DNA of 32,862 nt, from assembly GCA_017453205.1 (NCBI GenBank), contig JAFTKO010000031.1, positions 1 to 32,862 of the forward strand, written 5' to 3'. Shown here one piece after another: positions 1,917 through 32,862 of this stretch (its first letter is position 1; each line of letters starts with the position of its first letter). Origin of the DNA: Clostridia bacterium. GTDB lineage: Bacteria; Bacillota; Clostridia; Oscillospirales; CAG-272. The position numbers and the translations under genes are program-made. The notes under the pieces are model-generated. The model saw only the letters and a program-made list of their open reading frames with translations, made no database searches and was not told where the DNA came from.

Positions 1917-2012
1917 TGCGGGAGCTATTGTTGGGATAACGCGATCAAACATTCCTTTCCCGTCAAAAAACTGCGGAACAGCGCACAAGCACCCCACAAT
2001 ATTCACATCATC

Positions 2013-2066: not shown

Positions 2067-2098
2067 AAAAATTTGTTTTGAGATTAGTATTACTATTC

Positions 2099-3082: not shown

Positions 3083-3109
3083 CGGTGGTCTCCTTTCTCA
3101 AACATGCGA

Positions 3110-4111: not shown

Positions 4112-4131
4112 AGTTTCCTCTGCGCTCCGCG

Positions 4132-13415: not shown

Positions 13416-13537
13416 TGTTATGTTACAACTCTAATTGAAATATAACAACTCTTTCTGAAATAAGAGAAAATTTTAAAAATCGCAAGTTACAACTCTTTTG
13501 AAATAAGAGATCAAAAGTTACAACTCTATTTGAAACA
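13416..13537. repeat. Tn7-like transposon end with four TnsB-site-like repeats
   Basis: Four direct copies of an ACAACTCTnnnTGAAA-type repeat: TGTTACAACTCTAATTGAAA (13421-13440), TATAACAACTCTTTCTGAAA (13441-13460), AGTTACAACTCTTTTGAAAT (13485-13504) and AGTTACAACTCTATTTGAAA (13516-13535). Two are extended by TAAGAGA. The outer tip is TGTTATGT (13416) or TGTTAC (13421). Both begin with TGT, as Tn7 ends do. The spacing (20, 44 and 31 bp) and the layout, an 8-bp tip followed by repeats, resemble Tn7 ends. If the tip is 13416, the 5-bp target copy would be GTGAT at 13411-13415, overlapping the typA stop. Confidence 0.8.
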
Positions 13538-13606: not shown

Positions 13607-15250
13607 CTATTCCTCTTTCTGTTCGTCAGGCAAGGCGCGATTCAGGATATTTCTCATATCAATGATATTCGCCTCATTTTTGACCGCGGTTTTGGGAACA
13701 TACCTTTTGTCCGAAGCCATGCTTTCAAGACGTTTAAAGGCTTTTTGAGAAAGCTCCAATTCCGAAGCAGGCGCATTTGCTTTGGATTGCATCACATGAT
13801 CCACTGCTTTTTCGATCTTGCTCATATTATAAACCTTATCAAGCGTCGCAAGTGCATTTTGAACATTTTTGATCACGTTGCCTCGGAGGTTGGCACGATC
13901 TATCAAATCGTTACCGGTTGCTTTCTTAGTGTAAAAAGCCGCGGCTTCTTTCTGTTGTTGCATTTGTAAGTCTTGTTCAAGCTCCTGTTTCGCAATTCTC
14001 ATTAAGGCTTGCCTTTGCGCCTCGACCTCCGGATCTCCCAGACGGTCCAACAGGTTTTTCATTTCCGGAAAATACTTTTGTGATACACTGCGGATATAAT
14101 TGGGGGTTATCATTGGCTTGTTTAGTTCTCGCAAATAATCGATTTGCACATACATATACACGGCAATCAATTGATCTACAATTCCGCTTGTAACGTCATA
14201 GAAGGCATCGGCGATTTCTTGGGAATATGGAATATATTGATCAAACCATTGATAGCGCATGAGGTTTTTTACAATTGCCGAAAAATAAGGGCGGTCTTGG
14301 CAATACAGATTGGCGTTGATGTAAGGTCCGGTTCTTCTGCTGGTTCGAAGGTTTGGAAACATTTTTTGGTAAGCATCCTCTGTGCCAACGGCAAACAACG
14401 CCACTTTGGTTTGATTGACGATGGTCAGGAGGCTTTCAAACGTGTTTTCTTTTTGGGATTGAAAGTCGATCAATTGGATCTCATCAAAAATCAGGCATCC
14501 AATTCCAAAGATATCAATCAGTTTACAAACGATTGTTGCTTTTTCGGCTAAGGTACGTTTCTTTTGAATCATTTCCTCGTAGATCGGCGTGATATTTCCA
14601 AGCGCCTTGTCAATCTCAGCTCCAATGCTGTTATACAAGGCGGAAAAATTGGAATTTGCAGGACATACCACCACAAGATAGACGATTTGCGTAAATCGAT
14701 GATATTTTTCGTTCCGGTGCTCGATCACCTGTGGATAATTGGACAACAGTATTTCCAATGCCGAAGACTTGCCGCAGCCCGAATAGCCCAAAAGAGTACA
14801 CCCTGCGTTTGCAGCGGCTGCCACTTTTCCCTGCAATGACAGATGGGTACCTTGCTTTTCGTCATTTTGGACGATCTGCTGTTCGTCATTGAAATATCGA
14901 AAGTGTCGATTGCGATAGGAATTAAGCAAAGCCGTATGGAATTCAACTTCCAGCGTTGGATGAAACGGGAGCATATAACGCAGAGATCGTAATGAAGTTA
15001 CCGATATCTGTTGCTCGATTGGACTCATTGCTTTGATCCTCTCATAATCAAAATCAGTGAGTGGTTTTGTGTAAGCCGCGCATACCTCTTCGAAGTCCCT
15101 TGGGGAAGGCAGTGCTTCAATAAAAGGATTCCCACTATCGGTGGAACAGACAGCCTTGACATAGCGCGCAGGTACACATGTTGTTTCGGTCAGGTCGTAA
15201 TCGTCATACTGCCGTTCTCCCGGGGAGAGTTTTTCGTATTCATAGGTCAT
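13607..15250 (-). CDS. tnsC: TnsC-like AAA+ transposition regulator
   Basis: 547 residues. Walker A is GYSGCGKS at 155-162 and Walker B CLIFDE at 252-257, followed by the TnsC-typical IQLID. VCPANSNFSALYNSIGAEID and the sensor region VNQTKVALFAVGTEDAYQKM match Tn7-group TnsC (TniB/TnsC family). The protein is expected to polymerise on DNA, take the target signal from TnsD/TniQ and activate TnsAB. The long Gln-rich, coiled-coil C-terminal tail (about 400-547) would carry the TnsAB contact. Its ATG overlaps the tnsB end by 11 bp. It is the last gene before the transposon end. Confidence 0.92.
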   Translation of the reverse strand: MTYEYEKLSPGERQYDDYDLTETTCVPARYVKAVCSTDSGNPFIEALPSPRDFEEVCAAYTKPLTDFDYERIKAMSPIEQQISVTSLRSLRYMLPFHPTLEVEFHTALLNSYRNRHFRYFNDEQQIVQNDEKQGTHLSLQGKVAAAANAGCTLLGYSGCGKSSALEILLSNYPQVIEHRNEKYHRFTQIVYLVVVCPANSNFSALYNSIGAEIDKALGNITPIYEEMIQKKRTLAEKATIVCKLIDIFGIGCLIFDEIQLIDFQSQKENTFESLLTIVNQTKVALFAVGTEDAYQKMFPNLRTSRRTGPYINANLYCQDRPYFSAIVKNLMRYQWFDQYIPYSQEIADAFYDVTSGIVDQLIAVYMYVQIDYLRELNKPMITPNYIRSVSQKYFPEMKNLLDRLGDPEVEAQRQALMRIAKQELEQDLQMQQQKEAAAFYTKKATGNDLIDRANLRGNVIKNVQNALATLDKVYNMSKIEKAVDHVMQSKANAPASELELSQKAFKRLESMASDKRYVPKTAVKNEANIIDMRNILNRALPDEQKEE

Positions 15251-17387
15251 GTTTTTTTGCCTCGTTGTTCATAAAATTTTTATAAGCATCTTTCAAATCA
15301 TCCGGTACTTCCAAAGGATCGTGTTGCGTACTTGTGCTATTTTCCGTGATGCTTTTGGGAGTTTCTTCAAATAAAGCCCTTTCCTGAGGAAGCAGAGCTT
15401 GATCCAATTTGTTTTGCTGCCTTGACACCTGTTTTTCTGCCCTTCGCGCATCCTGTATGTGATCTGTGTCGGAAAGCGAAGCCTTTTTTGCGCTGTCCAC
15501 CGTGCTTTGGTTTGCCGCATAGCGCGCAATGGCAATCATCTCGTTGTGTCTTTTGCCTTCTCTTTTTCTGTCGTTTTGTTCTTTTTTATATTCAAGATAT
15601 TGATCGTAGGTCATGTTTCCAAATTCAAGTTGATTCGGATGATTAGGGTTCAAAGGAATAGAAAGCAGTTTGTTTTCGTGTATATAATATATTTTTTCCA
15701 TACTCCTCGGATCCAATAAAATCTCAAATGATTTTCTTTTGTTTCCGCAATCATACATTTGCCGATTCAAATCAAGATCGTTGGGTGCATAATAGTAAAG
15801 ACCTTGAAATTTGACCCCACGTCTTGAAATCTTTGCATTTTTCTTTTCCATCAGACTTGTCATAAATTGAGGTAGGTTTGCAGAAGTGATCAAGGTTGGG
15901 TATCCGTGCTTTTCACAGCCATATTTCCAAAGTTCCGTAGGGATTGCTTGAAAATCGGGGATTTGAAGCATTTCCTTTGTCATTGGGTAATCCAAAATCA
16001 CGCCGGCATTATGAGTGAGAACAAAAGTAAGTACGAGCTTTGTAAAATCTGTTAGTGTAAGCGTTGATTCCCGGTGGTGATTGGAGTTGTAATCCTTGGT
16101 GATCAATCCCGCATGCGTAACATGAGGGTGTAGTTGCGTTTGGAATTGATGAAACTTTTGTTCAACCATGCCCTTCATTGAACCGGTTGCACCTGGTTCA
16201 AGAGTTAGTTTGATCCCGTTTATATGACAGAAGTTGGCAAAATGTTTCCCTGTAAATTCGGATCCTCTGTCACACCGGATTTCGTGAGGAATGAAATTAG
16301 AAGGCCAATGGGCTTCGTTTATTGTGATGTCATACTTGCTACAGTATTGGATTTTATCGAGCGAAAGGTTAAGAAGTAGATTCATAATTCCAAGGGCGGA
16401 ATTTTGCTCAAGTCCTACAGAAAAGGAAACGATTGCACCGGAAAACAGATCAACCATCATATAAACGGTGGTCCGTCCAATACATTGATCGGGATGAATC
16501 GATGAAACCAACGAAACATCAGCCTCTACGGCATCCACCTCCACGATCCACCCGGGACGAATAGCATCCGCGCGGGAGTTTCCAATCAAAAGCCTTTTGG
16601 CGTTTCGCTGCTCTGCTTTCCCCAATTTTGCAATATCGCGTTCTGTTTTTGGCAAGTGCTTGGAACAATAGTAATAAAATTGACGCAGGGTAGGGATTTC
16701 CGATATGGCCGGAAGAATGCATTCTCCACCGGGCGAGAATTTTGTGTAATAGCTGACGATCAACCAACGGTATGCTGCTGCCAACGATTTTGCGTTTCCT
16801 TTTTTAAATTGATTGATCGCTTTGTCAAATTGATCGTATATTTCAGGGGTTAATATGATTCCGGTTTGCATGTTTTCTCCGGTGGGTCTTCCGGTTTTCT
16901 TTTTATAGACAAGTTTCTCTCTACGTGTGTTCTTTTGGCAAAGCGTTCGATTATCTAAAAGTGATGACGGAGCAAATCCGCTTTGCAGATAGTGGCGAAT
17001 ATAACGCCAAATTGTTGGTTGTGTAATGTGATATTGATCGATTAACTCCTTGACTACAGGTTTCGGCTTCTTGTTTGTCAAATCCAAAAACAAAGGTCCG
17101 TATTCGGTTACGATTCTGTCAACAATTTCCTTTTTGAAAAAGAACTTTGCTTTTTGGGTTTCTGTAAAGGACTCCACCTGAACGATTTTCGAGTTTTTTT
17201 CTGGAACGATCAACATCTCCTCTGTTTCTATTTGACAAAAAAGGAGCTTGGCAGAATACAGAAAAATATTGATGGAGGAAATTTCTGTTTCACACAAAAC
17301 AAAAGCATCATTTGTAAAATGAAGCACTCTGTATTTTCCTGTTCCGTTGGAAACAATTTTTCCGACCAGACTTATTTTGTCATTCAT
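15240..17387 (-). CDS. tnsB: TnsB-like DDE transposase
   Basis: 715 residues. Helical DNA-binding domains come first (HTH near 110-135, with ITQPTIWRYIRHYL). The RNase H-fold catalytic core has D285 (VEVDAVEAD), D373 (IRCDRGSEF) and E409 (GSMKGMVEQKF), the D,D35E layout with 35 residues between D373 and E409. A Mu/TnsB-type beta-barrel follows at about 520-600. The charged, unstructured C-terminal tail is probably the TnsC-binding hook. It joins the transposon 3' ends to the target. tnsA overlaps its start by 8 bp. The conserved triad suggests it is active. Confidence 0.95.
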   Translation of the reverse strand: MNDKISLVGKIVSNGTGKYRVLHFTNDAFVLCETEISSINIFLYSAKLLFCQIETEEMLIVPEKNSKIVQVESFTETQKAKFFFKKEIVDRIVTEYGPLFLDLTNKKPKPVVKELIDQYHITQPTIWRYIRHYLQSGFAPSSLLDNRTLCQKNTRREKLVYKKKTGRPTGENMQTGIILTPEIYDQFDKAINQFKKGNAKSLAAAYRWLIVSYYTKFSPGGECILPAISEIPTLRQFYYYCSKHLPKTERDIAKLGKAEQRNAKRLLIGNSRADAIRPGWIVEVDAVEADVSLVSSIHPDQCIGRTTVYMMVDLFSGAIVSFSVGLEQNSALGIMNLLLNLSLDKIQYCSKYDITINEAHWPSNFIPHEIRCDRGSEFTGKHFANFCHINGIKLTLEPGATGSMKGMVEQKFHQFQTQLHPHVTHAGLITKDYNSNHHRESTLTLTDFTKLVLTFVLTHNAGVILDYPMTKEMLQIPDFQAIPTELWKYGCEKHGYPTLITSANLPQFMTSLMEKKNAKISRRGVKFQGLYYYAPNDLDLNRQMYDCGNKRKSFEILLDPRSMEKIYYIHENKLLSIPLNPNHPNQLEFGNMTYDQYLEYKKEQNDRKREGKRHNEMIAIARYAANQSTVDSAKKASLSDTDHIQDARRAEKQVSRQQNKLDQALLPQERALFEETPKSITENSTSTQHDPLEVPDDLKDAYKNFMNNEAKKHDL

Positions 17388-18039
17388 GAGAATGTCCTCT
17401 TTCTAATAAAGACTGTAGCTGAATATAATCCAACAGCTTGCTTTTCATGTCCGGTTGAATTGTTTTGTGAGCGATCTGGTAGCGAATCAGATCTTGGCGT
17501 GTTTGAACGCGCTGGATGTCATAGCATGAAACAACGTCCATGATGTTTTGTACATACGTTTTGTTGACCTCGTCTTTGAAACGGATATAAAAGGCAACAC
17601 CCTGCGTTTCCCAATATGCTTGTTCAAGCCGCAGTTTTTGTATTGTTCTTTCATTCTCCAGCACACTTCGGTCTGTTTTGATGCTATACGCTTCAAGTGT
17701 CCCGTTGGTGCGCGTAATAAGAAGATCTGTCGTCATACGGGTGCTTCGATCGTGTGGGTGCTTGATCCTCAGCTTGTCGGCAATCTCCAACGTCCGATCC
17801 AACTCCAGCGGGAACTGCTCGCGGATGTCCTCGACGGTATCGTCCCAACGAAGGATGTAGTAATAATATACCTCTCCCTGTGACAATAGTTCTACCGGTC
17901 GCCCTGTTTTATAATCTATGACGGTCGAGGCGGTGCCGATGCTGTTCACCTCGCGGATCTTGATCCACGGTTTGTAGTCAGCACCGATTCCGGTCCCGCG
18001 ACCTTCTCGTAATTTGCCATTTTCTGTTTTTCTCGGCAT
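17380..18039 (-). CDS. tnsA: TnsA-like endonuclease
   Basis: 219 residues from ATG 18037-18039, two bases after the stop of the preceding gene and after GGAAAGAGAG; the longer frame lies inside that gene. The restriction-like active site is E56 (SQGEVYYYYILRW), D105 (RMTTDLLI) and K121 (EAYSIKTD), matching the E, D, K pattern of Tn7 TnsA; the Gln found at 130 in Tn7 TnsA is replaced by Ser119. DIREQFPLE and KHPHD are family-typical. TnsA cuts the 5' ends so that transposition is cut-and-paste rather than replicative. The C-terminal part would touch TnsC. Confidence 0.93.
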   Translation of the reverse strand: MPRKTENGKLREGRGTGIGADYKPWIKIREVNSIGTASTVIDYKTGRPVELLSQGEVYYYYILRWDDTVEDIREQFPLELDRTLEIADKLRIKHPHDRSTRMTTDLLITRTNGTLEAYSIKTDRSVLENERTIQKLRLEQAYWETQGVAFYIRFKDEVNKTYVQNIMDVVSCYDIQRVQTRQDLIRYQIAHKTIQPDMKSKLLDYIQLQSLLERGHSHE

Positions 18040-18041
18040 AT

Positions 18042-19115
18042 TTATTTCTCTCTTTCCGGCGGTATCATGTACACGCCATAACTGATTCTTTCTAATTTGT
18101 TTGCACGGTAAAGATTTTGAACCGTTTTTGATAGCTGCTGGTGCTCCATCCCGGGGAGGTCGATCCGTCTGATTGAAAAGGCTTCCCCGGGAGCATAGCA
18201 TTCCGACAGCCACTCCATCACTCGCCTGCTTACCATTGGTGTCAAAGAAACGTTTAAATTGCGTTTTTCCAACGGTAGGATCATGGACGGTTTGAAGCGA
18301 AACAGCTCTTGCATGATACGCACGATCGGGAACTTTCGCGGCTCCCCGGTTTGCGTGTTTCGGATCAATGCGTCGTATTCGCCGATCTGTCGGTCAATGG
18401 TATATACCCCATAGGAAACCTCATTGACGATACGGCAGAAATCTGAATAGATCAGTCGGTGATGACATTTTGCGCAACGGGTTCCCATAAGGAATCTCTG
18501 CGGCTTATAGGTTTGTACGGTATTGCAGGTTTTATGAAGAATCTGAACGTCGGTCTTTCGACCCTTGTATACGCCGATCAACTCATATTCATCTCCTACC
18601 AACCCGTAAATCTCATCCCGAAACTCTTGCTCCGACCGTGCAAGGCTTGCGCAGCGCGTGCAATTCGGATGACGAATAAAACGACTATAATTTACAGTAA
18701 ACTCTGATCCACACTCCGGGTGAAGTATGCGAAGCGGCTTTTTCGTGTTTTGAAAATCGATTAGTTCAAAATTGCCAAGCAGATCGATACGGCGGTATAA
18801 TTCCTCGCGGGAAGACACTTTTCCACACGCGCATCGCGCAGATTCTTCCAGAAAACTGCGAGGGCGGACGGAATACTCTCTTCCGCACGCATGGTGACGG
18901 ATCGTGACCTTATGATTCATATCCGAGAAGGATAATAGCTCATAGTCTCCGCAAGCGGCAGTATCAAAGATGTGCTGAAATAATTCTTGATCCGACAGCT
19001 TAGTGTCACAGTCTGGGCACCCCCAACCGCTTTGTACCCGATGGGGCGTTGTCAAAAAGCAATGATGGCAGGAACGGCATCGAAGCTCGATCAGATCCTC
19101 TCTCCACGGGGACAT
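18042..19115 (-). CDS. Second TnsD, zinc-rich C-terminal half as separate reading frame (tnsD2b)
   Basis: 357 residues from ATG 19113-19115. It matches, in order, the second half of the intact TnsD1 (20052-21863): WREDLIELRC against FREDIVELQC, SGWGCPDCD against SGWGCPSCD, GDEYELI against GDEYKLL, ILPLEKRN in both. At least six CxxC or C/H pairs suggest repeated zinc modules, expected to read the target DNA. After ILPLEKRN it adds about 75 residues not present in TnsD1, a winged-helix-like region ending YRANKLERISYGVYMIP. The stop of the upstream half is two codons earlier in the same frame, in TAGGAGTTGATG. The AGGAG there could serve re-initiation, but it is only 3 bases from ATG. Confidence 0.8.
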   Translation of the reverse strand: MSPWREDLIELRCRSCHHCFLTTPHRVQSGWGCPDCDTKLSDQELFQHIFDTAACGDYELLSFSDMNHKVTIRHHACGREYSVRPRSFLEESARCACGKVSSREELYRRIDLLGNFELIDFQNTKKPLRILHPECGSEFTVNYSRFIRHPNCTRCASLARSEQEFRDEIYGLVGDEYELIGVYKGRKTDVQILHKTCNTVQTYKPQRFLMGTRCAKCHHRLIYSDFCRIVNEVSYGVYTIDRQIGEYDALIRNTQTGEPRKFPIVRIMQELFRFKPSMILPLEKRNLNVSLTPMVSRRVMEWLSECYAPGEAFSIRRIDLPGMEHQQLSKTVQNLYRANKLERISYGVYMIPPEREK

Positions 19116-19121
19116 CAACTC

Positions 19122-20018
19122 CTATTTTTCATCCATCTGTTTTTGATTGTCAGGCAGTGAATTTGGGGACAGATAGACGAGAAGCGTTTTGACGTCCTCG
19201 AACAGATAAAGCAACACGGTAATACAGGTTTGCATATCGCATTGACTTTTTGGTGGAAAGTAGCGAAAGAAGGACTTTAGCGATGTCTTCAACAGATCGG
19301 CATAAGCCCCCATCTCTTGTTGCAGGCGGTCTGCCGTCTGTTTGGAATATCCCCGTTCCTTCATTCGGGAGAGGATCGCCTTGGCAATCGATTCGACGTC
19401 ACATGAAAGATCGGCGATCAATAGCTCATGCGCAAGTACGGCATACTCCAAGCTTTTCTCCTGAATATTCATCTCGATTGATGGCTGATCAGGATCCAAT
19501 TCCGATCCTCTCTTACCTTGATACAGATGTAACGCACACCCATGACGGTGGCAGACGGCAACACCCGGGATCTGATGGGAACGGCGATAGTACCATTCTC
19601 CCATTTCGTTCAAATCCTGCTCTCGACATTGCGGGCAAAACTTCAACTCTTGAAAAACATCAGCAAGCGGTGTGATCAGGCTTGTTCGACCTCGGTCTCG
19701 GGAGAGCATTCCGATCCGATGCGATGCGAGTGCCCGACCACATGTGAGTGACCAAATTGGAAACAACGATGTTTGTCGATATAACTCTGCTACACCTGTT
19801 GTGGGGAGTGCTGCCGCTTGTAGTAAGGGATACAGATCGGAGTGGATGTCATACCGCACAGTGCGATATGTGCTTTTGGGATTTTCATAGAGTGGCAATA
19901 TCTTTGACGTTCCAAGAAAATCACGTGGATCATCAAATCCGTTGGCTTGGGATAGCCTCAACAGATAAGAGTATAATATTTCATTTTCCTTTATTTTTAA
20001 AACAATCGGTAATATCAT
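19122..20018 (-). CDS. tniQ: Second TnsD, TniQ-type N-terminal half (tnsD2a)
   Basis: 298 residues with the TniQ signature: ENEILYSYLLRLSQANGF, CPQC (C128, C131), YYRRSHQIPGVAVCHRHG (C156, H159 complete a CCCH zinc site). The end, TVLLYLFEDVKTLL, corresponds to LLLYLFHDVSGLK in TnsD1, just before the linker. It therefore has about the size of the stand-alone TniQ proteins of CRISPR-associated transposons. AAGGAAG is placed well before the ATG, 33 bp after tnsD1. The next half follows in the same frame after a single TAG. Confidence 0.88.
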   Translation of the reverse strand: MILPIVLKIKENEILYSYLLRLSQANGFDDPRDFLGTSKILPLYENPKSTYRTVRYDIHSDLYPLLQAAALPTTGVAELYRQTSLFPIWSLTCGRALASHRIGMLSRDRGRTSLITPLADVFQELKFCPQCREQDLNEMGEWYYRRSHQIPGVAVCHRHGCALHLYQGKRGSELDPDQPSIEMNIQEKSLEYAVLAHELLIADLSCDVESIAKAILSRMKERGYSKQTADRLQQEMGAYADLLKTSLKSFFRYFPPKSQCDMQTCITVLLYLFEDVKTLLVYLSPNSLPDNQKQMDEK

Positions 20019-20051
20019 TTTTTACTTCCTTTTCATTGATTGTGTCAGTTC

Positions 20052-21863
20052 TTACACGGATTGCCCATTCGTGTTTGGCTTCGGATTACGCTTTTCCAGT
20101 GGGAGTATATCGGATTGCGTTGGACGGCGTAGTTCTTGGAGTGCAAGCTGTCTTCGCAATGTTACCTTCTCATTGGTTGTGGTGTTCAAGAGCGTTGCAT
20201 AATCACCGTGTAATCCTACAACGGTGTATTCTCCGGAGGAGTCATGCCATACGGTTCCAACAAACTCTTTTCCTGACATTCTTGGGTTGCAACGTTTACA
20301 TCGCTGTCCATGGAGAAATTTTTCCCATATATATGATTGGACGGTATTGCAGAGATTGTGACGGATCAGAATTCTTTTTTTAGCCGATTCGGGGATGTTC
20401 AACAGTTTGTACTCATCACCAACCAGATCGGAGAACTTTTGTTTCGTTTCTTCATTTGGCAAATGGCGGTTGTTTCTCAATCGTTGGCAAATACTGCATC
20501 GCGGATCTTTTACGAAAGGGTGATACATCACGCGAAAGGTGTTTCCGCAAGCTTTATGACGTAATAGAATCGGCTGCATGGAGGTTTTGAATGCAAGCAG
20601 TTCAAAACCCCCCAGATTTTCGACCTTCTCCCTTACCGTTTTCTCGATAAGGGTGTATTCGCAACGGCATTTCAAGCGGCGCTTCAGACAGCTTTGCACA
20701 GAAGTATCAAATTCTTTTCCGCATGATAGATGCCGTACACGAATGGGATGACTCTTAGACTGAAAGTCAGAGAGCAATTCAAAGGTTTCTCCTACGCGCG
20801 CCTCAAACAAGCGTCGAAAAAGCGTTGCGTCATCCATTTTACCGTCACAGCTTGGGCATCCCCAACCCGAAAGGATCCGATCCGGTGTAGACAAGAAGCA
20901 TTCACCGCATTCCTTGCACTGCAATTCCACAATGTCTTCCCGAAAGGGAGCGACGAGCGTGTACTTGTTTGCAATGGCTTCCTCGAAAGGTTGTCTGATC
21001 TCGAGCTTTGGCTTCAGATAGGGTTTTAAGCCCGATACATCATGAAACAGATAAAGAAGAAGCGTCAAAAGTGAAGCCATATGAGGGCACGCACTGTTTC
21101 GAATGGATCGGAGAATCTTTTCCGGCGTATCTTTCATCAATTCACCGTAATCTTTCATCTGTTCTGTGAGCGAGTGACCTTCCGGTGAATATCCAAGCTC
21201 ACAGAACTTTTTTAAGATCGCGTCCGTGATTGCCGTGAGATCGCATTCCAACTCTGCCTCGAGAAACGCTTTGCAAAAGATGGCATATTCGTGGCTCTTG
21301 GTATGGAAAGGTAATGAATTTGAGATAAGCGGTAGCTTCATTTCCTCGCCGTGCCTTCCCTCGTACACGTGGAGGGCACATCCGTGCTTGTGGCAAACCG
21401 TTACTCCCGGCATCTGGTGTGCGCGGTGATAGTAAAAGTAACCGTGCCGATCAAGGTCATCCTTTTGACACAGAGGGCAAAAGCGCAGTTCCGAGATCAT
21501 TACATGAGTTGGTGAGAGTAGCTTGGATGGGTTTCGGTACTTGGAAAGCGATCCGACATAACAGGACGTACGGTATGAGGAACATAAGGGCGCGATTCCG
21601 TGAAACAGCGAAGTCTTCAGATAAAATGACAGTGTTTGATTTGGATCCGTATCCCACACGGAAGCGGCAAAACGGTAAAGATCGTCTTGAGCTTCGTACG
21701 AAATTTTAGTGGAAGTTCTTTTTTCATTTTCACCAATTGGAAAAACATAGTGATCCGTGAAGTCTCTGATGTCATCAAATCCGTTTGCGATCGAAAGTCG
21801 CAGCAAATAAGAATAGAGCAATTCGTCCGGCAGAGGAACCGACACAAAAGGAAGTTTGGGCAT
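20052..21863 (-). CDS. tnsD: Intact TnsD/TniQ-family target selector (tnsD1)
   Basis: 603 residues. The N-terminal TniQ domain has PDELLYSYLLRLSIANGF, the CCCH zinc site C129, C132, C157, H160 and YYHRAHQMPGVTVCHKHG. A helical middle part leads to LLYLFHDV, and then zinc-rich repeats follow from about 300 (CKECGECF, GWGCPSC, HLSCGKEF, RHKACGNTF, CSIC, HNLCN, RCKRC). In Tn7, TnsD binds a sequence at the 3' end of glmS and recruits TnsC. Here the natural candidate target is the 3' end of typA, next to which the element sits (inference). It is the first gene of the tns run, with AAAGGATG before its ATG. Confidence 0.92.
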   Translation of the reverse strand: MPKLPFVSVPLPDELLYSYLLRLSIANGFDDIRDFTDHYVFPIGENEKRTSTKISYEAQDDLYRFAASVWDTDPNQTLSFYLKTSLFHGIAPLCSSYRTSCYVGSLSKYRNPSKLLSPTHVMISELRFCPLCQKDDLDRHGYFYYHRAHQMPGVTVCHKHGCALHVYEGRHGEEMKLPLISNSLPFHTKSHEYAIFCKAFLEAELECDLTAITDAILKKFCELGYSPEGHSLTEQMKDYGELMKDTPEKILRSIRNSACPHMASLLTLLLYLFHDVSGLKPYLKPKLEIRQPFEEAIANKYTLVAPFREDIVELQCKECGECFLSTPDRILSGWGCPSCDGKMDDATLFRRLFEARVGETFELLSDFQSKSHPIRVRHLSCGKEFDTSVQSCLKRRLKCRCEYTLIEKTVREKVENLGGFELLAFKTSMQPILLRHKACGNTFRVMYHPFVKDPRCSICQRLRNNRHLPNEETKQKFSDLVGDEYKLLNIPESAKKRILIRHNLCNTVQSYIWEKFLHGQRCKRCNPRMSGKEFVGTVWHDSSGEYTVVGLHGDYATLLNTTTNEKVTLRRQLALQELRRPTQSDILPLEKRNPKPNTNGQSV

Positions 21864-23482: not shown

Positions 23483-23671
23483 ATGCCGGAGAAAAAACTT
23501 GTCATATCGTCAAAGAAGTTCCGTGGGGACTCTGCCGTGGTGTCGGTGCGACTTCCGAACGAGCTGATCCTCAAGCTTGATGAGATTGCCGAGCGCACGG
23601 GGCGGACGAGAAACGAGATCATGCAGACCTGCATTGAATTTTCGGTGGAAAATCTGGAAATAAACGATTAA
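23483..23671 (+). CDS. Ribbon-helix-helix (CopG/Arc-type) regulator
   Basis: 62 residues. The beta strand is AVVSVRLPNELILKLDEIA, then the turn ERTGRTRNEIMQTCIEFS, the classic RHH pattern with the GRTRNE turn before helix B. GTGAGGTG precedes ATG. The stop is 10 bp before the first TIR gene. It probably autoregulates the cluster. RHH proteins also act as antitoxins, so it may keep a toxic TIR product in check; this is inference. Confidence 0.87.
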   Translation: MPEKKLVISSKKFRGDSAVVSVRLPNELILKLDEIAERTGRTRNEIMQTCIEFSVENLEIND

Positions 23672-23681
23672 GGATGACGAC

Positions 23682-26357
23682 ATGGCAATTTTTAAATGTA
23701 AGATCTGCGGTGGAACGCTTGAAATAGGCGGCGCGCAATCGGTTGCTACCTGCGAATATTGCGGAACGAAGCAGACGCTGCCCAAGCTTGATGATGACCG
23801 CAAGGCAAACCTTTATGACAGAGCCAATCACTTCCGTCGAAACAATGATTTTGACAAAGCGATGGGCATTTATGAGAATATTTTGAACGAGGACAACACC
23901 GATGCCGAGGCATATTGGTCGCTTGTTCTTTGTCGCTACGGTATTGAATACGTAGAAGATCCCGCGACGCATAAGCGTGTTCCTACCGTCAACCGTGCGC
24001 AGTTTACGTCGGTCTTTGATGATGAGGACTACAAGTCTGCTTTGCAGTATGCCGACGGATATCAGCGCGAAATATATGAGGCAGAGGCGACTGCCATCAA
24101 CGAAATTCAAAAAGGCATCCTTGCCATCTCGCAGAAGGAGGAGCCTTTTGACGTATTCGTATGCTATAAGGAGACCGATGCGAACGGGCGCAGAACGCAG
24201 GACAGCGTGCTTGCCACCGAGCTTTATCACGAACTGACGCGCGAGGGATTTAAGGTATTCTTCTCCCGTATCACATTGGAAGATAAGCTTGGAATTGCAT
24301 ATGAGCCTTACATATTCGCCGCGCTGAACTCGGCAAAGGTGATGGTGGTTCTCGGTACTCGCCCCGAACACTTTAATGCTGTTTGGGTCAAGAATGAGTG
24401 GAGCCGTTACCTTGCGCTGATCAAAAACGGCGCAAAGAAAACGCTGATTCCCGCATACAGAGATATGGATCCCTATGACTTGCCCGAAGAGTTTTCGCAT
24501 TTGCAGGCGCAGGATATGTCCAAGCTCGGGTTTATGCAGGACCTTACACGCGGCATCAAGAAGATCGTTGCGGCAGATGCGCCTAAGACAATAGCCAAAG
24601 AAACTGTCATTGCAACGGCTACAACACCCAATATTGCACCCCTTTTGAAACGTGCGTTTATGTTCCTCGAGGATGGAGATTTTGACCGTGCTGATGATTT
24701 CTGTGAGCAGGTTCTGAATCAGGATCCCGAAAATGCGGAGGCTTATCTTGGCAAACTGATGGTTGAATTAAAGGTGAGCCAAAGAAAAAATCTTGGCAAC
24801 CTTGAATTTGCATTTGATAAAGAAAAAAATTATCTGAAAGTTCTCAGATACGGTGATGAAGTAATTCGAACGGAGCTGCAAGGTTACATCAAGACCATTT
24901 ACAAGCGTAACGAAGATAAATTCAGAGAAGAAATATATCAAAAAGCACGAAAAAAGCAATCTAATGCTCTTGATAAAATCTCTTTGGAAGAAGCTGTAGA
25001 ATTATATGATAAGATCATTAATTATAAGGATTCCAGAGAGCAAAAGGAAATTTGCCAAAGTAAAATACAATATATTAAACAACAAGAAGCGGAACGTGAG
25101 GAAAGGCTCAAAGAACAAGTAAAAGCAAGAGAAGAAAAGGATATTCTTCAAACAGATATAAAGTATAAAAAGCATAAAATTTTATTTACCTGTGCAATAG
25201 TGTTTCTTATTGTTTCTCCTCTCCTTTTGATTTTAGCATGTTTTTCTCCTACTCCAACATTGGCGCTAATATTTATATTTTTATTTTTTACAGATCTGTT
25301 ATGTATAGCTGTTCCATTTCAAAAGTACAGGTATGTTAAAGCAAAGAAGTACTATTATGACAAAAAATATTTTAATGCCGCGGACATATTTGAACAGATG
25401 GAAGGTAATCCGCACAATAAGTTTATGGACGTTAGCACATGGAAAAGAAAATCGTTAATCGCAGCAGGAGATACTTCTTATATAGCATATAGTAATTACA
25501 AAAAGAAACAGCGTAGAAAAGAAAAATTTATAATAGCCGGTATCACTGCCGCTGTTATATTGGCGATAGCTTTAGTTTTGGTTATAATTTTTGTGGTGGA
25601 GAGTGTTATTATTCCTAATAAAAAATATAATAAGGCCATTGGTTTACTTGAATCAGGTAATTATGTTGATTCGTATGAAGCTTTAATTGAATTAAACGGA
25701 TATAAAGATAGTGCAGAAAAAGCAAATTCTATTTACGAAACATATAAAACAGAAAAACTAAAGACAGCAAAAGTTGGCGACTGCATTTTATTTGGATCAT
25801 ACGAGCAGGACAATAACACACAAAACGGACGAGAAAACATCGAGTGGCTTGTGCTTGAAACAAAGGATAATAAAGTGCTTGTTGTTAGTAAATATGCACT
25901 CGACCGCCAACCATACAACGAACATAACGCAAAGATTACATGGGAAACTTGTACACTTCGCAAATGGCTGAATAATGAGTTTATTAATACTGCTTTTTCC
26001 GATAGTGAAAAAACAGCTATTCTAACTGTTACTGTCTCTGCAGATAAAAATACTGTCGGCACATCTGATCCTGGGAACGCAACACAAGACAAAGTTTTTT
26101 TGTTGAGTATCACAGAAGCAAACAAGTATTTTAGTTCTGATAGTGATCGTAAATGTGATGTAACAACTTATGCTGAAGCACGGGAAACATACAGTAGCGA
26201 TGGAATGTGGTGGTTGCGATCCCCTGGAGAAATTCAATATGTGGCTTCGACTGTCTACAATAGTGGCTCTGTAAATAAGTTTGGTAAATATGCAGATGAT
26301 TCTCTTGCTATCAGACCTGCTCTTTGGATAGATCTTGAAGGTGAGATGTTCCAATGA
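23682..26357 (+). CDS. Zinc ribbon-TPR-TIR membrane protein with DUF6273 ectodomain (TIR-1)
   Basis: 891 residues. Zinc ribbon C6, C9, C24, C27; TPR-like NLYDRANHFRRNNDFDKAMG (44-62); TIR domain about 155-295, from FDVFVCYKETD through SRITLED and AYEPYIFAAL to VMVVLGT. E208 in AYEPY is a candidate NADase glutamate by position. More TPR-like helices follow from about 325 and a coiled coil around 465-490. A hydrophobic hairpin is near 499-545, a third membrane segment near 616-640. The C-terminal DUF6273 part begins FGSYEQDN (about 705) and has TWETCTLRKWLNNEF, FLLSITEANKYF, WWLRSPG and IRPALWI. The TIR half would be cytoplasmic, DUF6273 probably outside. AAGGATG precedes ATG. Confidence 0.88.
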   Translation: MAIFKCKICGGTLEIGGAQSVATCEYCGTKQTLPKLDDDRKANLYDRANHFRRNNDFDKAMGIYENILNEDNTDAEAYWSLVLCRYGIEYVEDPATHKRVPTVNRAQFTSVFDDEDYKSALQYADGYQREIYEAEATAINEIQKGILAISQKEEPFDVFVCYKETDANGRRTQDSVLATELYHELTREGFKVFFSRITLEDKLGIAYEPYIFAALNSAKVMVVLGTRPEHFNAVWVKNEWSRYLALIKNGAKKTLIPAYRDMDPYDLPEEFSHLQAQDMSKLGFMQDLTRGIKKIVAADAPKTIAKETVIATATTPNIAPLLKRAFMFLEDGDFDRADDFCEQVLNQDPENAEAYLGKLMVELKVSQRKNLGNLEFAFDKEKNYLKVLRYGDEVIRTELQGYIKTIYKRNEDKFREEIYQKARKKQSNALDKISLEEAVELYDKIINYKDSREQKEICQSKIQYIKQQEAEREERLKEQVKAREEKDILQTDIKYKKHKILFTCAIVFLIVSPLLLILACFSPTPTLALIFIFLFFTDLLCIAVPFQKYRYVKAKKYYYDKKYFNAADIFEQMEGNPHNKFMDVSTWKRKSLIAAGDTSYIAYSNYKKKQRRKEKFIIAGITAAVILAIALVLVIIFVVESVIIPNKKYNKAIGLLESGNYVDSYEALIELNGYKDSAEKANSIYETYKTEKLKTAKVGDCILFGSYEQDNNTQNGRENIEWLVLETKDNKVLVVSKYALDRQPYNEHNAKITWETCTLRKWLNNEFINTAFSDSEKTAILTVTVSADKNTVGTSDPGNATQDKVFLLSITEANKYFSSDSDRKCDVTTYAEARETYSSDGMWWLRSPGEIQYVASTVYNSGSVNKFGKYADDSLAIRPALWIDLEGEMFQ

Positions 26358-26434: not shown

Positions 26435-27835
26435 ATGGCACAAATAGCAGAAATCATTAAATATGAGGGTGACAACAGCACCTTTATTTGGAAGCATCCC
26501 GTTGAGGATTTTAACTCTTTGACACAACTGATTGTTCATGAAAGTCAAGAGGCGCTATTCTTTATGAATGGTCAGGCGCTTGACCTGTTCGGGGCAGGCC
26601 GCTACACGCTTGAAACACAGAATATTCCCATGATCGGCAAGGTTCTCAACCGTGCTACAGGTGGAGAGTCTCCCTTCCATTGCGAGGTCTATTTCATCAA
26701 CAAGACTGTGCAGATGGCAATCAAATGGGGAACGGACTCCAAGATCAGATTCTTGGAGCCGTCTCTCGGTATTCCGCTTGAGATTGGTGCGTGCGGTGAG
26801 CTGAATCTGACCGTTTCGGATTCACGCAAGCTCCTTGTAAAGCTTGTTGGAACGATGAGAGGTATTGCTTGGGAAGAAAAAGGAATGGGCTTTACAAAGT
26901 CGATTCAAAATTCCTTCCGCCCTTTGATCTCAACTGCCGTAAAGGCACATCTGTCCAATGCGATCAAGTCTAACAACATCAACATTCTGGAGATTGACGA
27001 AAATCTGGAGCGGCTTTCCGATGTTTTGCGCCAAAGTATCGTTCCGGGATTTGAAGAATACGGCTTGACGATTCCACAGTTCTACATCACAAACGTCGCA
27101 CTCCCCGAGAACAATCCCAATTTCAGACGTATGCGCGAATTACACACCGTTTCCTTCCAAACCCGAATGATCCAAGCCGAAGCACTTGTAAAATCCGCGC
27201 AGGCAGATGCCGAGGCGGAAATTACCGCGGCGCGCCGTAAGATTGAACTCGAAAAGCAGTTGACCGAGACCGAAGTTGCAAAACGCGAGGCAGAAAGAGA
27301 TCTGATCCGCGCCCAGGCTGATGCGCAGGCAACGAAGATGGCGGGCTTTGCAGAAGCAGAGGTTATGCGTGCAAAGGGATACGATCAAAAGGATGTTTTG
27401 CAGACCGAGGTACAAAAGGCGTATGCCGAGGGCATTGGCAATATGACTATCAATGGCAGTGGCGGCGGAGTTGCAGGAGACATGATCGGACTTGGTGTTG
27501 GAATGGCTGCGGCAGGGGCTGTCGCTCCCCAGCTTGGCGATATGTTCAAGGGATTTGCACCGAATCCTTCTACGGAAGCTCCTGTCCCCGAAGCTAAATG
27601 TGCAAAGTGTGGTGCGACGCTTCCCGCAAATGCGAAATTCTGCTTGGAATGCGGCGAGAAGGTTGCGCCCGCTATCCCTGCTGATATGGTTGTGTGCCCC
27701 GAATGCGGAAATACCGTTTCAAAGGGTAAATTCTGCCCCGAGTGCGGACATAAATTTGTAACCGTTTGCCCCAAGTGCGGTAAAGATGTAGTCGTGGGTG
27801 CAAAATTCTGCCTTGAATGCGGCGAAAAGCTTTGA
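26435..27835 (+). CDS. SPFH/Band 7-domain protein with three C-terminal zinc ribbons
   Basis: 466 residues. The SPFH-like region is about 30-240, including VHESQEALFFMNGQALDLFG and GRYTLETQNIP, of the group often annotated as virion-core-like or YdjI-like. An Ala/Glu-rich helix follows at about 245-325 (AQADAEAEITAARRKIELEK). A Gly/Ala-rich link leads to three zinc ribbons (CAKC/CLEC, CPEC/CPEC, CPKC/CLEC) at about 387-466. No signal peptide or membrane helix is seen. SPFH proteins form membrane-attached rings or scaffolds, and YdjI works with PspA-type membrane stress proteins. The zinc ribbons echo those starting both TIR proteins and may be a shared docking device (inference). Confidence 0.9.
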   Translation: MAQIAEIIKYEGDNSTFIWKHPVEDFNSLTQLIVHESQEALFFMNGQALDLFGAGRYTLETQNIPMIGKVLNRATGGESPFHCEVYFINKTVQMAIKWGTDSKIRFLEPSLGIPLEIGACGELNLTVSDSRKLLVKLVGTMRGIAWEEKGMGFTKSIQNSFRPLISTAVKAHLSNAIKSNNINILEIDENLERLSDVLRQSIVPGFEEYGLTIPQFYITNVALPENNPNFRRMRELHTVSFQTRMIQAEALVKSAQADAEAEITAARRKIELEKQLTETEVAKREAERDLIRAQADAQATKMAGFAEAEVMRAKGYDQKDVLQTEVQKAYAEGIGNMTINGSGGGVAGDMIGLGVGMAAAGAVAPQLGDMFKGFAPNPSTEAPVPEAKCAKCGATLPANAKFCLECGEKVAPAIPADMVVCPECGNTVSKGKFCPECGHKFVTVCPKCGKDVVVGAKFCLECGEKL

Positions 27836-28587: not shown

Positions 28588-31500
28588 GTGGCACTTTTCA
28601 AATGTAAAATGTGCGGCGGATCGCTGGAGATTGCTGACAACGCTACGGTCGTTGAATGTGATTACTGCGGCACACAACAGACCTTGCCCAAGCTTGATGA
28701 CGAAAAACGCGCGAATCTTTATGACCGCGCGAACCATTTTCGGCGGAACAATGAGTTTGACAAGGCAATGGCTATATACGAACAGATATTGAACGAAGAC
28801 AATACCGATGCGGAAGCATATTGGTCGATCGTTCTTTGTCGCTACGGAATCGAGTACGTAGAGGATCCGTCTACCAAAAGACGGATCCCTACGGTCAATC
28901 GCGCACAATTCACCTCGATTTTGGCAGATGAAGACTATAAATCGGCTCTTGCCAATGCAGATACATATCAAAAAAGCATTTATGAGTTGGAAGCGAAAGC
29001 TATTGATGAGATACAAAAAGGCATTTTGGCAATTTCCAATAAGGAAGAGCCGTTTGATGTCTTTATCTGCTATAAGGAAACCGATAATAGCGGAAAGCGT
29101 ACACAAGATAGTGTGCTTGCACAGGATCTTTATTATGGCTTGAAGAACGAAGGCTTCAAGGTCTTTTTCTCGCGCATCACTCTGGAAGAAAAATTAGGCT
29201 CTGCCTACGAACCCTATATTTTTGCCGCGCTGAATTCGGCAAAGGTTATGGTGGTACTTGGAACAAAAGCCGAACACTTTAACGCCGTATGGGTGAAAAA
29301 CGAGTGGTCGAGATTTTTGGCTCTTATTAAGCAAGGGCAGAAAAAGGTGCTGATTCCCGCCTACAAAAATATGGATCCTTACGACCTTCCTGAAGAATTC
29401 TCTCATTTGCAGGCGCAGGATATGTCCAAACTGGGCTTTATGCAGGATCTGATCCGGGGAATTAAGAAAATCGCCGAAAAAGAAAAAAAGGAGACTGTCA
29501 AAGAAACGGTGATCGTCAATCAAGTCAACCAGGATCATGACACGGCCCCTCTTTTGAAGCGTGCGTTTCTGTTCTTGGAGGATGGAGATTTTGACAGTGC
29601 CGACGAATATGCGGAAAAGGTTTTGGATATTGATCCCGAATGCGCGGAAGCCTATGTTGTAAAATTGCTGATTGGGTTGAAGCTACGCTCTCCTTCCCAA
29701 ATCGGATCGTATGCCTCACCGATTGACCGAAATCCTAATTATATTAAGGCTTTGCGGTTTGCCAAGGGAGACTATCGTAATACGATCGAGGGCTACAATC
29801 AAGCAATCGTTGATCGGATTGATTTAGACAATAAGAATCAACAGTATGCAAACGCTTGTTCCTTGATGAATTGCAGAAGATATAGCGATGCAATTTCGGC
29901 ATTCTCCAAAATTGGATCTTTTAAGGATTCTGCAGCCAAAATTGAAATTTGCAAGCAAAACATAGAAACGGATCGTAAGGAGCGGATCTATGCAGATGCT
30001 TTACGCAACGTTGCTTCTGCTGCGGCAAATGACAAGAATATTTTGAATAGCATCGCCGCTTTACAGTCGATTAAAGGCTACAAGGATGCTGATGCATGGG
30101 TAGAAAAACTTGAAGCGCGCCTTGAAAAGTGGTATGCAGATCAAAAGGCAGCCGAAGAAAAAGAGAGAATCAAGGCCGAGCAGGATAAGCTGGAGGCAAT
30201 TCGGCAAGCCGAGTTGCGCAAGCTCAAGGCTGAACAGAATAAGAAAAAGGCTGTAAAAGCTGCCAAAATCGGCATTCCGAGTTTGATCGCGTTGGTTTTA
30301 GTTGTTGTTTTAACGACCACCTTGCTGATTCCGATGATCCGCTTTCATAAAGCCGATAAGCTGTTTGCGGAAGGCAAGTATGCCGAAGCCGATTCAATAT
30401 ACAAAGAGCTCGATGGCTTTGGAAAGAGCGACCAGCGTATTTCTGCGGTAAAAGCGATCGATCAGGTTGAAGATAAGAAGTTCGAGGAAGGCATCAAAAC
30501 ACTTCTGGCAGCAGGCGTTCCTGTTGAACTGACTTATCAGACGGCAGGCGGCAGTTTGACAGATACGCAAACGATCTCGCTGGGCTATACGCTTTCTTTG
30601 GATGATTCTATCGTGCCCTTAAGCGCGGAAAAATCAACCACATCCGAGCAAACTGTGTTTACATTCACGCAAAGCTCCGATTTTACAGGCTTGAAAACAC
30701 CGGGAAGAAACGGTTATCGGTTTGTAGAATGGGAGTTGGATACCTATGCCTATGATGTAGAATCAAAGGACGCAACCTTTACGCTTTCTCTGAAGGCAAA
30801 ATGGAGCACCAAAGATTATACGGTCGAGTATGATCTTGCGAGCGGATCTGTTCAAGGCAACAATGTCGTAGAATATGACCCCGAGGACGAAGCCTTTACC
30901 TTGATCAATCCTACTCGCACGGGCTATACCTTTGCCGGTTGGATGGGAACCGGTCTTTCTGAGCCGACTATTGAGGTTACCGTACCCACGGGAAGCTATG
31001 GCAACCGAACCTATACGGCTACTTGGAAAGCAAACGAGTATACGGTTACATTGCTACCAAACGGCGGTGAGGTGTCTAACGCACAGTTGACGGTTGTTTA
31101 TGACAAACCTTTTACATTGCCTACCCCGACATGGTTGGGTCATGATTTTTCGGGTTGGTATATTGATGGCAAAAAGGTCACTGATGGTACGTGGAATGAA
31201 ATACAAAATATAACGTTGACCGCCAAATGGGACGCCACCGATTACACGATTACTTATCATCTCGATAATGGTACCAATGCAGCATCTAATCCCAAAACTT
31301 ATACGATATATGATGCCATTGCATTGAAAGAACCTACAAAAACGGGATACACATTCCTCGGCTGGACATATGATGGACAGTCAACTCCCACAAAAACCGT
31401 ATCCATTGCAATAGGCACGACCGGGAATAAGGTTTATACTGCAAATTGGCAAGCAAATGAGTACAAAGTAACGTTTGATGCCAACAATGGCACGGTTTCG

Positions 31501-32862
31501 ATTCCAGAGCTTGACGCAATATATGATTCCAACGTTACTCTGCCCACACCCTCAAGAACAGGTTATTCCTTTGACGGATGGTATAACGGAAATCAAAAAT
31601 ACACATCCGGAGCATGGAAAGAGGCATCTAATGTCACACTTACTGCAAAGTGGACGGCAAATACCTATAAGGTTTCTTATGATGCCAATCAAGGTACGGT
31701 TTCTGCTTCTTCCAAAAATTATGTTTACGATGCAAGCTACACGTTGTTGACCCCTGAAAGAACGGGTTATGAGTTCCTTGGTTGGTATAACGGAAATACG
31801 CCTGTGGTACAAAGTGGAACTTGGTTATTTACCGAAAATCTTTCGCTTGTAGCAAAATGGAAAGCGCTTACATACACCGTAACCTATGATGCGGGTATAG
31901 GAACGTCTTCTGTTACCTCTGCGCAGGCAACCTATGATTCCAATTTTACACTTGCTACAGCCAGCCGAATTGGCTATTCCTTTGACGGTTGGTATTATAA
32001 TGGAACCAAATATGCGGATGGCGCGTGGAAGACCGCGAAAGATATTATGCTGACAGCAAAATGGGTTGCAAATACCGATACCAAGTACGTCGTCAATCAT
32101 TATCAGCAAAACATTACTGATGACGAATATACCTTGGAGTCTTCGCAAAATCTTGAAGGAACGTCGGATGCAACTATCACGCCCGAGGTTAAAACCTTTA
32201 CAGGCTTTACCTCACCGACGGCTCAGACTGTAACGGTTAAACCCGACGGCACGCTTGTCGTTAATTACTATTATACGAGAAATTATTATACTGTAACCGT
32301 TGTTGGAAACGGGGGAACATCAAGTGTTATCAATTTAAAATACCAATCTGTAATTGATACTACAAATTGGACAACAAGAGAAGGCTGTACTCTTGGTGGC
32401 TTGTATACTGATTTGGCTCTATCTAATCTCTATACCGACACCACTATGCCTGCAGAAAATAAAACTGTATATGCATATTGGATAGGAGATAATGCTGTTT
32501 CTGATTTTATTTACACAACATCTGCAAATGGGATTACCATTACCGGATATGTCGGAAATGGCACAATTATTAAAATCCCTGCACAAATAGGCGGTGTAGA
32601 TATTGTTGCAATTTCGGAGGCAGCTTTTGTCGATCAATCAAGCGTTACTTCTATAATTGTACCTGATACCGTCACAAGTATTGGTCTTGGAGCATTCAAG
32701 GGATGCAATGCACTTACCGACATCACCCTTCCGTTTGTAGGAGCAAACGAGGATGCCAAAGGATATGAAGCGGTGTTTGGATATATCTTCGGATATACGT
32801 CGACAAACGGTAACAGCAATCATTATGTATATAGCGGAGCAACAAATGTCAGTATAGGTTCA
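28588..32862 (+). CDS. Zinc ribbon-TPR-TIR-transmembrane receptor-like protein with InlB and LRR ectodomain (TIR-2; 3' end outside window)
   Basis: Starts at GTG 28588-28590, seven bases after AAGGAG, and stays open for 1425 codons to the window end. Residues 1-295 align without gaps to TIR-1: zinc ribbon C6, C9, C24, C27; TPR; TIR 155-295 with E208 in AYEPYIFAAL. Then come TPR-like repeats, a charged coiled coil (about 500-555) and one membrane helix near 561-583. Outside are about eight InlB/Listeria-Bacteroides repeats (about 645-1305), each with a GY-F-GW core such as TGYTFAGW and SFDGWY and ending in A-KW. A MucBP-like unit lies at about 1165-1234, and a BspA-type leucine-rich repeat starts near 1342 (VTSIIVPDTVTSIGLGAFKG). 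The topology is cytoplasmic TIR, single helix, adhesin-like outside. Confidence 0.9.
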   Translation, partial: MALFKCKMCGGSLEIADNATVVECDYCGTQQTLPKLDDEKRANLYDRANHFRRNNEFDKAMAIYEQILNEDNTDAEAYWSIVLCRYGIEYVEDPSTKRRIPTVNRAQFTSILADEDYKSALANADTYQKSIYELEAKAIDEIQKGILAISNKEEPFDVFICYKETDNSGKRTQDSVLAQDLYYGLKNEGFKVFFSRITLEEKLGSAYEPYIFAALNSAKVMVVLGTKAEHFNAVWVKNEWSRFLALIKQGQKKVLIPAYKNMDPYDLPEEFSHLQAQDMSKLGFMQDLIRGIKKIAEKEKKETVKETVIVNQVNQDHDTAPLLKRAFLFLEDGDFDSADEYAEKVLDIDPECAEAYVVKLLIGLKLRSPSQIGSYASPIDRNPNYIKALRFAKGDYRNTIEGYNQAIVDRIDLDNKNQQYANACSLMNCRRYSDAISAFSKIGSFKDSAAKIEICKQNIETDRKERIYADALRNVASAAANDKNILNSIAALQSIKGYKDADAWVEKLEARLEKWYADQKAAEEKERIKAEQDKLEAIRQAELRKLKAEQNKKKAVKAAKIGIPSLIALVLVVVLTTTLLIPMIRFHKADKLFAEGKYAEADSIYKELDGFGKSDQRISAVKAIDQVEDKKFEEGIKTLLAAGVPVELTYQTAGGSLTDTQTISLGYTLSLDDSIVPLSAEKSTTSEQTVFTFTQSSDFTGLKTPGRNGYRFVEWELDTYAYDVESKDATFTLSLKAKWSTKDYTVEYDLASGSVQGNNVVEYDPEDEAFTLINPTRTGYTFAGWMGTGLSEPTIEVTVPTGSYGNRTYTATWKANEYTVTLLPNGGEVSNAQLTVVYDKPFTLPTPTWLGHDFSGWYIDGKKVTDGTWNEIQNITLTAKWDATDYTITYHLDNGTNAASNPKTYTIYDAIALKEPTKTGYTFLGWTYDGQSTPTKTVSIAIGTTGNKVYTANWQANEYKVTFDANNGTVSIPELDAIYDSNVTLPTPSRTGYSFDGWYNGNQKYTSGAWKEASNVTLTAKWTANTYKVSYDANQGTVSASSKNYVYDASYTLLTPERTGYEFLGWYNGNTPVVQSGTWLFTENLSLVAKWKALTYTVTYDAGIGTSSVTSAQATYDSNFTLATASRIGYSFDGWYYNGTKYADGAWKTAKDIMLTAKWVANTDTKYVVNHYQQNITDDEYTLESSQNLEGTSDATITPEVKTFTGFTSPTAQTVTVKPDGTLVVNYYYTRNYYTVTVVGNGGTSSVINLKYQSVIDTTNWTTREGCTLGGLYTDLALSNLYTDTTMPAENKTVYAYWIGDNAVSDFIYTTSANGITITGYVGNGTIIKIPAQIGGVDIVAISEAAFVDQSSVTSIIVPDTVTSIGLGAFKGCNALTDITLPFVGANEDAKGYEAVFGYIFGYTSTNGNSNHYVYSGATNVSIGS

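Follow-up and report, generated by a model that had tools for sequence, protein, structure and literature searches.

The Clostridia bacterium contig JAFTKO010000031.1, analysed here over its full 32,862 nucleotides (the window), ends in a gene that joins a TIR (Toll/interleukin-1 receptor) domain to InlB-type repeats and a leucine-rich repeat (LRR) region through one membrane helix. Our best reading is that it belongs to a family of horizontally spread TIR surface receptors, with a layout like that of Toll-like receptors (TLRs), and that some members have ligand domains diversified by a retroelement. We consider it probable that the product is a single-pass surface receptor of a Clostridia family, with a conserved TIR signalling half, a ligand-binding outer half, a membrane platform and NAD+ cleavage. 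More tentatively, gut Clostridia would hold a mobile family of Toll-like receptors, combining a constant TIR half with a library of outer domains, either fixed or rewritten by a retroelement.

The receptor frame starts with a GTG codon, with AAGGAG just upstream (by eye), and stays open until the end of the contig (Table 1). The initial annotation, made from the sequence alone, described one frame with a zinc ribbon, tetratricopeptide repeats (TPRs) and a TIR domain, and the profiles agree. The TPRs match Pfam, and the TIR_2 match reaches 42.3 bits against a cut-off of 28 bits, placing the domain in the TIR superfamily by profile. Both CxxC pairs of the ribbon (residues 6-9 and 24-27) are invariant across 30 aligned proteins, composed of 28 of the 77 relatives described below, hand-picked for spread, and the two window receptors (alignments A3 and A5). 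The glutamate singled out earlier, E208, is present within the motif YEP and is likewise invariant in 30 sequences of the relatives' alignment. It is a candidate catalytic residue, given the role that such a glutamate has in other TIR enzymes.

The membrane helix had been placed at about residues 561-583, which was close, with the best 19-mer at 566-584 (mean hydropathy 2.8). There are 8 Lys/Arg in the 20 residues before it and 4 in the 20 after it. This excess on the N-terminal side suggests that the TIR side is cytoplasmic. Past the helix, the eight InlB-type repeats reported before correspond to seven Pfam stretches of Flg_new/InlB (E 2.6e-63) and one divergent repeat. The BspA-type LRR was also recovered. 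LRR_5 matches residues 1342-1382 with 27.6 bits for the whole protein (cut-off 27.7 bits) and 28.4 bits for the outer part alone. The LRR surface protein of PDB entry 4gt6 matches at E 3.6e-16, and the PDB chains of LRR surface proteins align to residues ~1290 to 1382. Judging from these matches the LRR is real, but the window holds just its first turns before the contig ends.

The Toll-like layout (LRR outside, one helix, TIR inside) is therefore present at sequence level, with the LRR only begun in the window. TLRs have an N-terminal LRR and a C-terminal TIR. Here the chain order is reversed, as had been stated, with the TIR N-terminal of the helix and the LRR C-terminal of it.

The family was then defined with residues 1-310 as query against 84,980 species genomes, with at least 594 matching stretches as the outcome, of which 563 come from relatives. 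The 80 top-ranking ones resolve into 77 loci, the basis of all counts of relatives or loci given here. The first 310 residues are 74-85% identical in the 77 relatives. The record titles are Clostridia, Oscillospiraceae, Lachnospiraceae and similar, with one planctomycete. The planctomycete-titled record (L040) contains a TIR and LRR member without a clear helix, 78% identical to the Clostridia family, and is either a mislabelled bin or a transfer. Besides A3 and A5, alignments were made of 67 of the 77 relatives plus the two window proteins (A1) and of 39 of 48 sequences plus one (A4).

Conservation was calculated for 70 of the 77 relatives and the two window proteins, with short or masked sequences left out. 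The commonest residue accounts for 0.71-0.97 per 20-residue block through residue 300, and drops to 0.35-0.60 beyond residue 360. In the 69 C-terminal regions scanned (67 relatives and both window proteins; one region may match several families), the most common domain is DUF6273, found in 41, followed by LRR_5 (7), RCC1_2 (7) and Flg_new (InlB, 5). By this comparison the inner half is constant and the outer half exchangeable across the family. At L013, L064, L069, L072 and L078, between two and four receptors with differing C-terminal regions stand in tandem.

In terms of topology, we considered the 71 relatives with proteins of at least 500 residues. Exactly one helix, located at 428-627, is found in 61 of them, and its N-terminal side is richer in Lys/Arg in 61/61. 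Four of the ten others are two cut proteins without a helix and two proteins with two or three helices; the remaining six are taken up below. The window order, with TIR, predicted helix, InlB and LRR within one frame, is also present in L019 and L072, while TIR-helix-LRR is found in L043 and L057 and TIR-helix-InlB in L025 and L050. The initial annotation had proposed a TIR inside and InlB/LRR outside one helix, and had suggested searching for that order in other Clostridia. Domain matches, the charge pattern and the order in relatives all support this layout.

The outer domain of the sister receptors points to ligand binding. DUF6273 is described as having a C-type-lectin fold and as a retroelement target in the gut phages of PMC10743442. 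Variable-region statistics cover 22 DUF6273 receptors (21 relatives with LRSPG and the window paralogue, a set biased towards intact members). In these, an invariant frame, WLRSPG...G...G...VRPALW, encloses 16 high-entropy columns. Codons ending in C or T make up 0.884 of these columns, whereas amino-acid use predicts 0.765 and the remaining variable columns show 0.45. The share of K/E/Q/M/W is 0.069 versus 0.291. The conserved columns of the DUF6273 stretch are also high in such codons (0.848), so this bias is only suggestive of AAY-template mutagenesis.

The decisive case is L011, a single contig of a metagenome-assembled genome (MAG) of an uncultured Eubacterium sp., where the receptor is followed by a bAvd-like gene, a template and a reverse transcriptase (RT). 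The RT carries LGNQTSQ and YMDD, and we take LGxxxSQ to be a mark of retroelement RTs. Over 123 bases, 21 mismatches separate the template from the variable region, and 21/21 fall at template adenines, of which 34 are available (P 4e-15). On this evidence L011 holds a complete diversity-generating retroelement behind a TIR receptor.

Adenine mismatches with an RT and Avd alongside were found in two further cases. In genome G077, contig C105 (L118) holds a DUF6273 end, Avd, template and RT, with 23/24 mismatches at adenines. The TIR half is absent from this RT contig, and a TIR frame on contig C35 runs to the end of that contig. The L020 contig breaks off within avd. L107, a second contig of the same genome, starts inside avd and continues with a template that accounts for 16/17 mismatches of the L020 receptor at adenines. 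Templates from other systems fit much worse, with 18/43 and 32/78 at adenines (P 0.009 and 0.003). Remnants were also seen: L013, with three receptors in tandem, keeps an RT piece, and L014 keeps RT and Avd pieces. The three variable regions of L013 show 18-21 adenine and 8-9 other differences from the L011 template.

An RT survey of 77 genomes, 50 from the 77 loci and 27 G genomes (G141 and G476 look like the same genome counted twice), found an intact frame of the L011-type clade in 3/77 and remnants in 2. There were 13 genomes with a match, eight of them having only distant RTs of at most 43% identity. Among the 391 genomes of the window's class, 34 contain L011-like RTs, mostly far relatives, and so do 4 of the 21 TIR carriers (G077, G141, G316, G360). 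In this sample, the TIR-positive G077 is the only genome with an RT above 56% identity. With these numbers we do not claim a general association between RTs and TIR carriers.

The initial annotation suggested that the protein could sense a surface ligand. The sister DUF6273 domains, with a lectin fold and a loop mutated by a retroelement in some genomes, support a ligand-binding role for the outer half; for the window protein itself, this sensing is inferred. A possible working can be outlined. The cytoplasmic half (zinc ribbon, TPR, TIR, TPR) would be the signalling module. The InlB repeats would hold the BspA-type LRR off the cell, and the outer half would bind the ligand. In sister receptors this outer half would be swapped for the lectin-like DUF6273 domain, mutated by a retroelement in some genomes. 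An external ligand, such as a phage particle, a competitor cell, or a host or mucus glycan, would cluster the receptors, and the co-encoded SPFH and four-transmembrane (4TM) proteins would form the membrane platform where they gather. Clustered TIR domains would then pack and cleave NAD+ through E208, which would stop or kill the cell or pass on a signal, possibly as an immune response.

The initial annotation did not cover the gene set, the swapping of outer domains or the indications of horizontal transfer. Ahead of the receptor are a regulator, a paralogous receptor, an SPFH protein and the 4TM protein. The receptor and its DUF6273 paralogue are the only TIR_2 genes found by the own-genome search. 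SPFH homologues are present at 50/77 loci and 4TM homologues at 48/77, none on the opposite strand; these counts are query-dependent (52 and 46 with one query set), and 50 and 48 were adopted. Both occur at 45 loci, and SPFH precedes 4TM in 45/45. Where 4.5 kb or more of upstream sequence is available (57 loci), SPFH lies inside that distance in 34. The third-largest neighbour cluster, ABC-transporter-like by eye, is found at 5 loci only, and no other besides SPFH and 4TM is larger. A HEPN-like small gene (pEK499_p136, below its cut-off) lies between 4TM and receptor in L103 (5528-5989) and L003 (7528-7986) only.

Table 1. Features of the window and of the L011 contig (aa, amino acids).
Sequence	Feature	Position	Strand	Basis or remark
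Window	Four TnsB-site-like repeats directly behind typA, candidate Tn7-like end	13422..13535	+	
Window	Tn7-like genes: TniB/TnsC-like, TnsB-like, TnsA-like, two TniQ	13607..21863	-	
Window	Ribbon-helix-helix regulator, 62 aa, head of the set	23483..23671	+	homologues in 11/77 loci
Window	Paralogous receptor, three membrane helices, DUF6273	23682..26357	+	N-terminal module in common (79-81% identity)
Window	SPFH (Band_7_1) protein with C-terminal zinc ribbons	26435..27835	+	Pfam
Window	4TM membrane protein, four apparent helices	27817..28548	+	by eye; no Pfam family
Window	TIR receptor with InlB/LRR outer part, 1425 aa, truncated by contig end	28588..32862	+	open reading frame, Pfam
Window	Zinc ribbon, CxxC at residues 6-9 and 24-27	28603..28668	+	motif; no Pfam family
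Window	First TPR, residues 43-78	28714..28821	+	Pfam
Window	TIR domain, residues 158-281	29059..29430	+	TIR_2 Pfam, own-genome search, TLR TIR profile match
Window	Codon of E208, candidate catalytic glutamate	29209..29211	+	alignment of 30 sequences
Window	Second TPR, residues 323-351	29554..29640	+	Pfam
Window	Membrane helix, residues 566-584	30283..30339	+	hydropathy
Window	InlB-type repeats, about eight, limits approximate	30700..32480	+	Pfam
Window	Start of BspA-type LRR, residues 1342-1382	32611..32733	+	Pfam, PDB profile match
L011	Receptor	334-2823		one contig (MAG, uncultured Eubacterium sp.)
L011	bAvd-like gene	2958-3347		downstream of receptor
L011	Template	3384-3506		after bAvd-like gene
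L011	RT	3667-4761		after template; LGNQTSQ and YMDD motifs

The SPFH gene brings in another explanation, that the set is an envelope-stress sensor in which SPFH and 4TM act like YdjI, YdjG and YdjH of Bacillus subtilis and the TIR receptor reports damage to wall or membrane. YdjI is described in PMC8581546 as having an SPFH domain and a zinc finger and as needed together with the membrane proteins YdjG and YdjH for the recruitment of PspA. The window set likewise has a zinc-ribbon SPFH gene adjoining a membrane protein gene, a likeness at the level of described domains, and SPFH/4TM may form a similar membrane platform. The partner described there is PspA, and here it is a TIR receptor; no PspA-like family recurs among the 785 clustered neighbour open reading frames (ORFs; at least 90 aa). 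A lectin loop mutated by a retroelement, together with many types of outer domain, would also be unneeded for general stress sensing. We regard this explanation as unlikely.

Somewhat less probable still is an adhesin with a regulatory TIR, where the outer part would mainly fix the cell to mucus, plant fibre or other cells while the TIR serves as a scaffold and not as an enzyme. Surface adhesins often contain InlB and BspA-type repeats, and the C-terminal regions are large, reaching up to 1372 residues past the helix. Against this, conservation is highest in the inner half, also at and around E208, which fits active signalling better than a passive anchor.

We give little credit to an intracellular conflict sensor whose C-terminal domain never leaves the cytoplasm, a situation shared by many proteins that retroelements diversify in multicellular bacteria. 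Several such targets are predicted to be cytoplasmic in the account of PMC10907252, and six complete relatives have no clear helix. Against this, 61 of the 71 proteins have a single helix, always with the Lys/Arg excess on the TIR side, and the helix of the window protein is strong. Finally, an assembly artefact fusing a TIR gene with an adhesin gene, which a 73% complete assembly of 44 contigs and a gene running off its contig might suggest, is rejected as practically negligible, because the independent assemblies L019 and L072 carry an identical domain order, with related orders in L025, L043, L050 and L057 and TIR-helix-DUF6273 in records without a MAG label (e.g. L023, L051), so that the frame is not a join.

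Several observations weigh against a diversified, enzymatic TIR surface receptor. The six complete relatives (of 71) without a clear membrane helix count here as well. The single PDB match of the TIR profile at E up to 1 is an animal TLR TIR, where the enzymatic glutamate is not aligned. SPFH is missing altogether from 17 of the 57 loci that have 4.5 kb or more of upstream sequence, and no effector gene recurs among the 785 neighbour ORFs. The output may then be the loss of NAD+ as such, or 4TM may act as the effector. Most of the DUF6273 carriers surveyed have neither a near nor a distant RT of the L011 clade, and the window's genome, in its 73% complete assembly, shows no such RT. Lastly, four window proteins, searched at full length, gave no match at E 0.01 to the PADLOC-DB profiles of known anti-phage systems.

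When compared to known systems, animal TLRs have in common the TIR inside, one membrane helix and the LRR outside, in addition to the TIR profile match. The receptor differs in its TIR-first order, InlB spacer, zinc ribbon and TPRs, E208 and bacterial gene set. We take the likeness of the whole protein to be one of layout, not of descent.

The retroelement-diversified sensors of multicellular bacteria, as presented in PMC10907252 and PMC7159879, also combine a C-type-lectin variable domain with immune-type domains, TIR included. Those have STAND or MoxR/vWA (NTPase) builds, several being predicted cytoplasmic and some membrane-bound or secreted, whereas the family described here has a single TIR-helix-DUF6273 chain and SPFH and 4TM neighbours. 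The gut-phage tentaclins of PMC10743442 likewise contain DUF6273 with a retroelement-mutated loop, but are described there as phage receptor-binding proteins with Ig domains and no TIR. The best phage matches of the L011 RT, at 45.6%, are phage nd12 of that study and one other phage record.

Thoeris proteins have a TIR in common, with weak profile matches to ThsB (E 0.006) and ThcB4 (E 1e-4), far below its cut-off. Against defence profiles, the TIR part alone matches PDC-S66 (E 2e-4) and ThsB (E 0.006). The family differs from Thoeris in its membrane-receptor build, and no ThsA-like gene recurs among the 785 neighbour ORFs. In a limited search of the literature, no paper mentioned TIR domains together with DUF6273, and the texts available on TIR domains with diversity-generating retroelements described no membrane TIR receptor of this build.

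To our knowledge, sensing and action of the bacterial TIR proteins characterised to date are mostly intracellular. If the receptor reading is true, bacteria too would survey their surroundings with a Toll-like arrangement, in which a candidate TIR enzyme faces the cytoplasm and an exchangeable recognition domain faces outwards. Bacteria of this kind may thus have Toll-like receptors on their surface, a part of which vary themselves. Such a system would give single cells an equivalent of both innate (LRR) and self-diversifying receptor recognition, built on one chassis. Its machinery would be related to the one that gut phages use to diversify their receptor-binding proteins. The retroelement-linked members open the question of immune-type diversification of a surface receptor within a bacterial population, and the relatives L011, L020, L013 and L014 make this testable by sequencing.

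The spread of the family is patchy. The TIR module is carried by 21/391 genomes of the window's class, its own included, and, among 398 genomes of the phylum, by its own genome and one other of its class only. Plasmid and phage records gave no match to the module, and IMG/VR gave one. In genomes of other families (11/11), the best TIR module is 76-85% identical versus 54-66% for TypA, which we read as signs of horizontal spread. Two congeners show the reverse, with TIR at 76-77% and TypA at 90-93%. Old paralogues under strong constraint could explain part of this contrast.

The receptor set may be cargo of a Tn7-like element, judging from the genes and repeats behind typA (Table 1). A fifth TnsB-site-like match, with three mismatches, lies inside typA. 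These repeats would mark one end only; neither the window nor, searched by exact pattern, the assembly yielded an opposite end. A 427-aa ORF (22043-23326) separates the Tn7-like module from the receptor set; it has no Pfam family and a weak, sub-cut-off similarity to ISL3 transposases. In L103, a record of IMG/VR, the receptor set is preceded by a gene that looks lysozyme-like by eye and by a resolvase.

Other RTs were also observed. Those of L100-L102 carry the QGxxxSP motif and were discounted as presumably group-II- or retron-like. The RT ORFs of L101 and L102, in genomes with the TIR module, have PQGAPTSP and YCDD motifs, which we assume to be retron-like, and L102 shares contig C72 with a TIR copy. 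Finally, L120, L122, L123 and L128 are other L011-like RTs in TIR-carrying genomes, with Asn-rich templates unlike the WLRSPG type.

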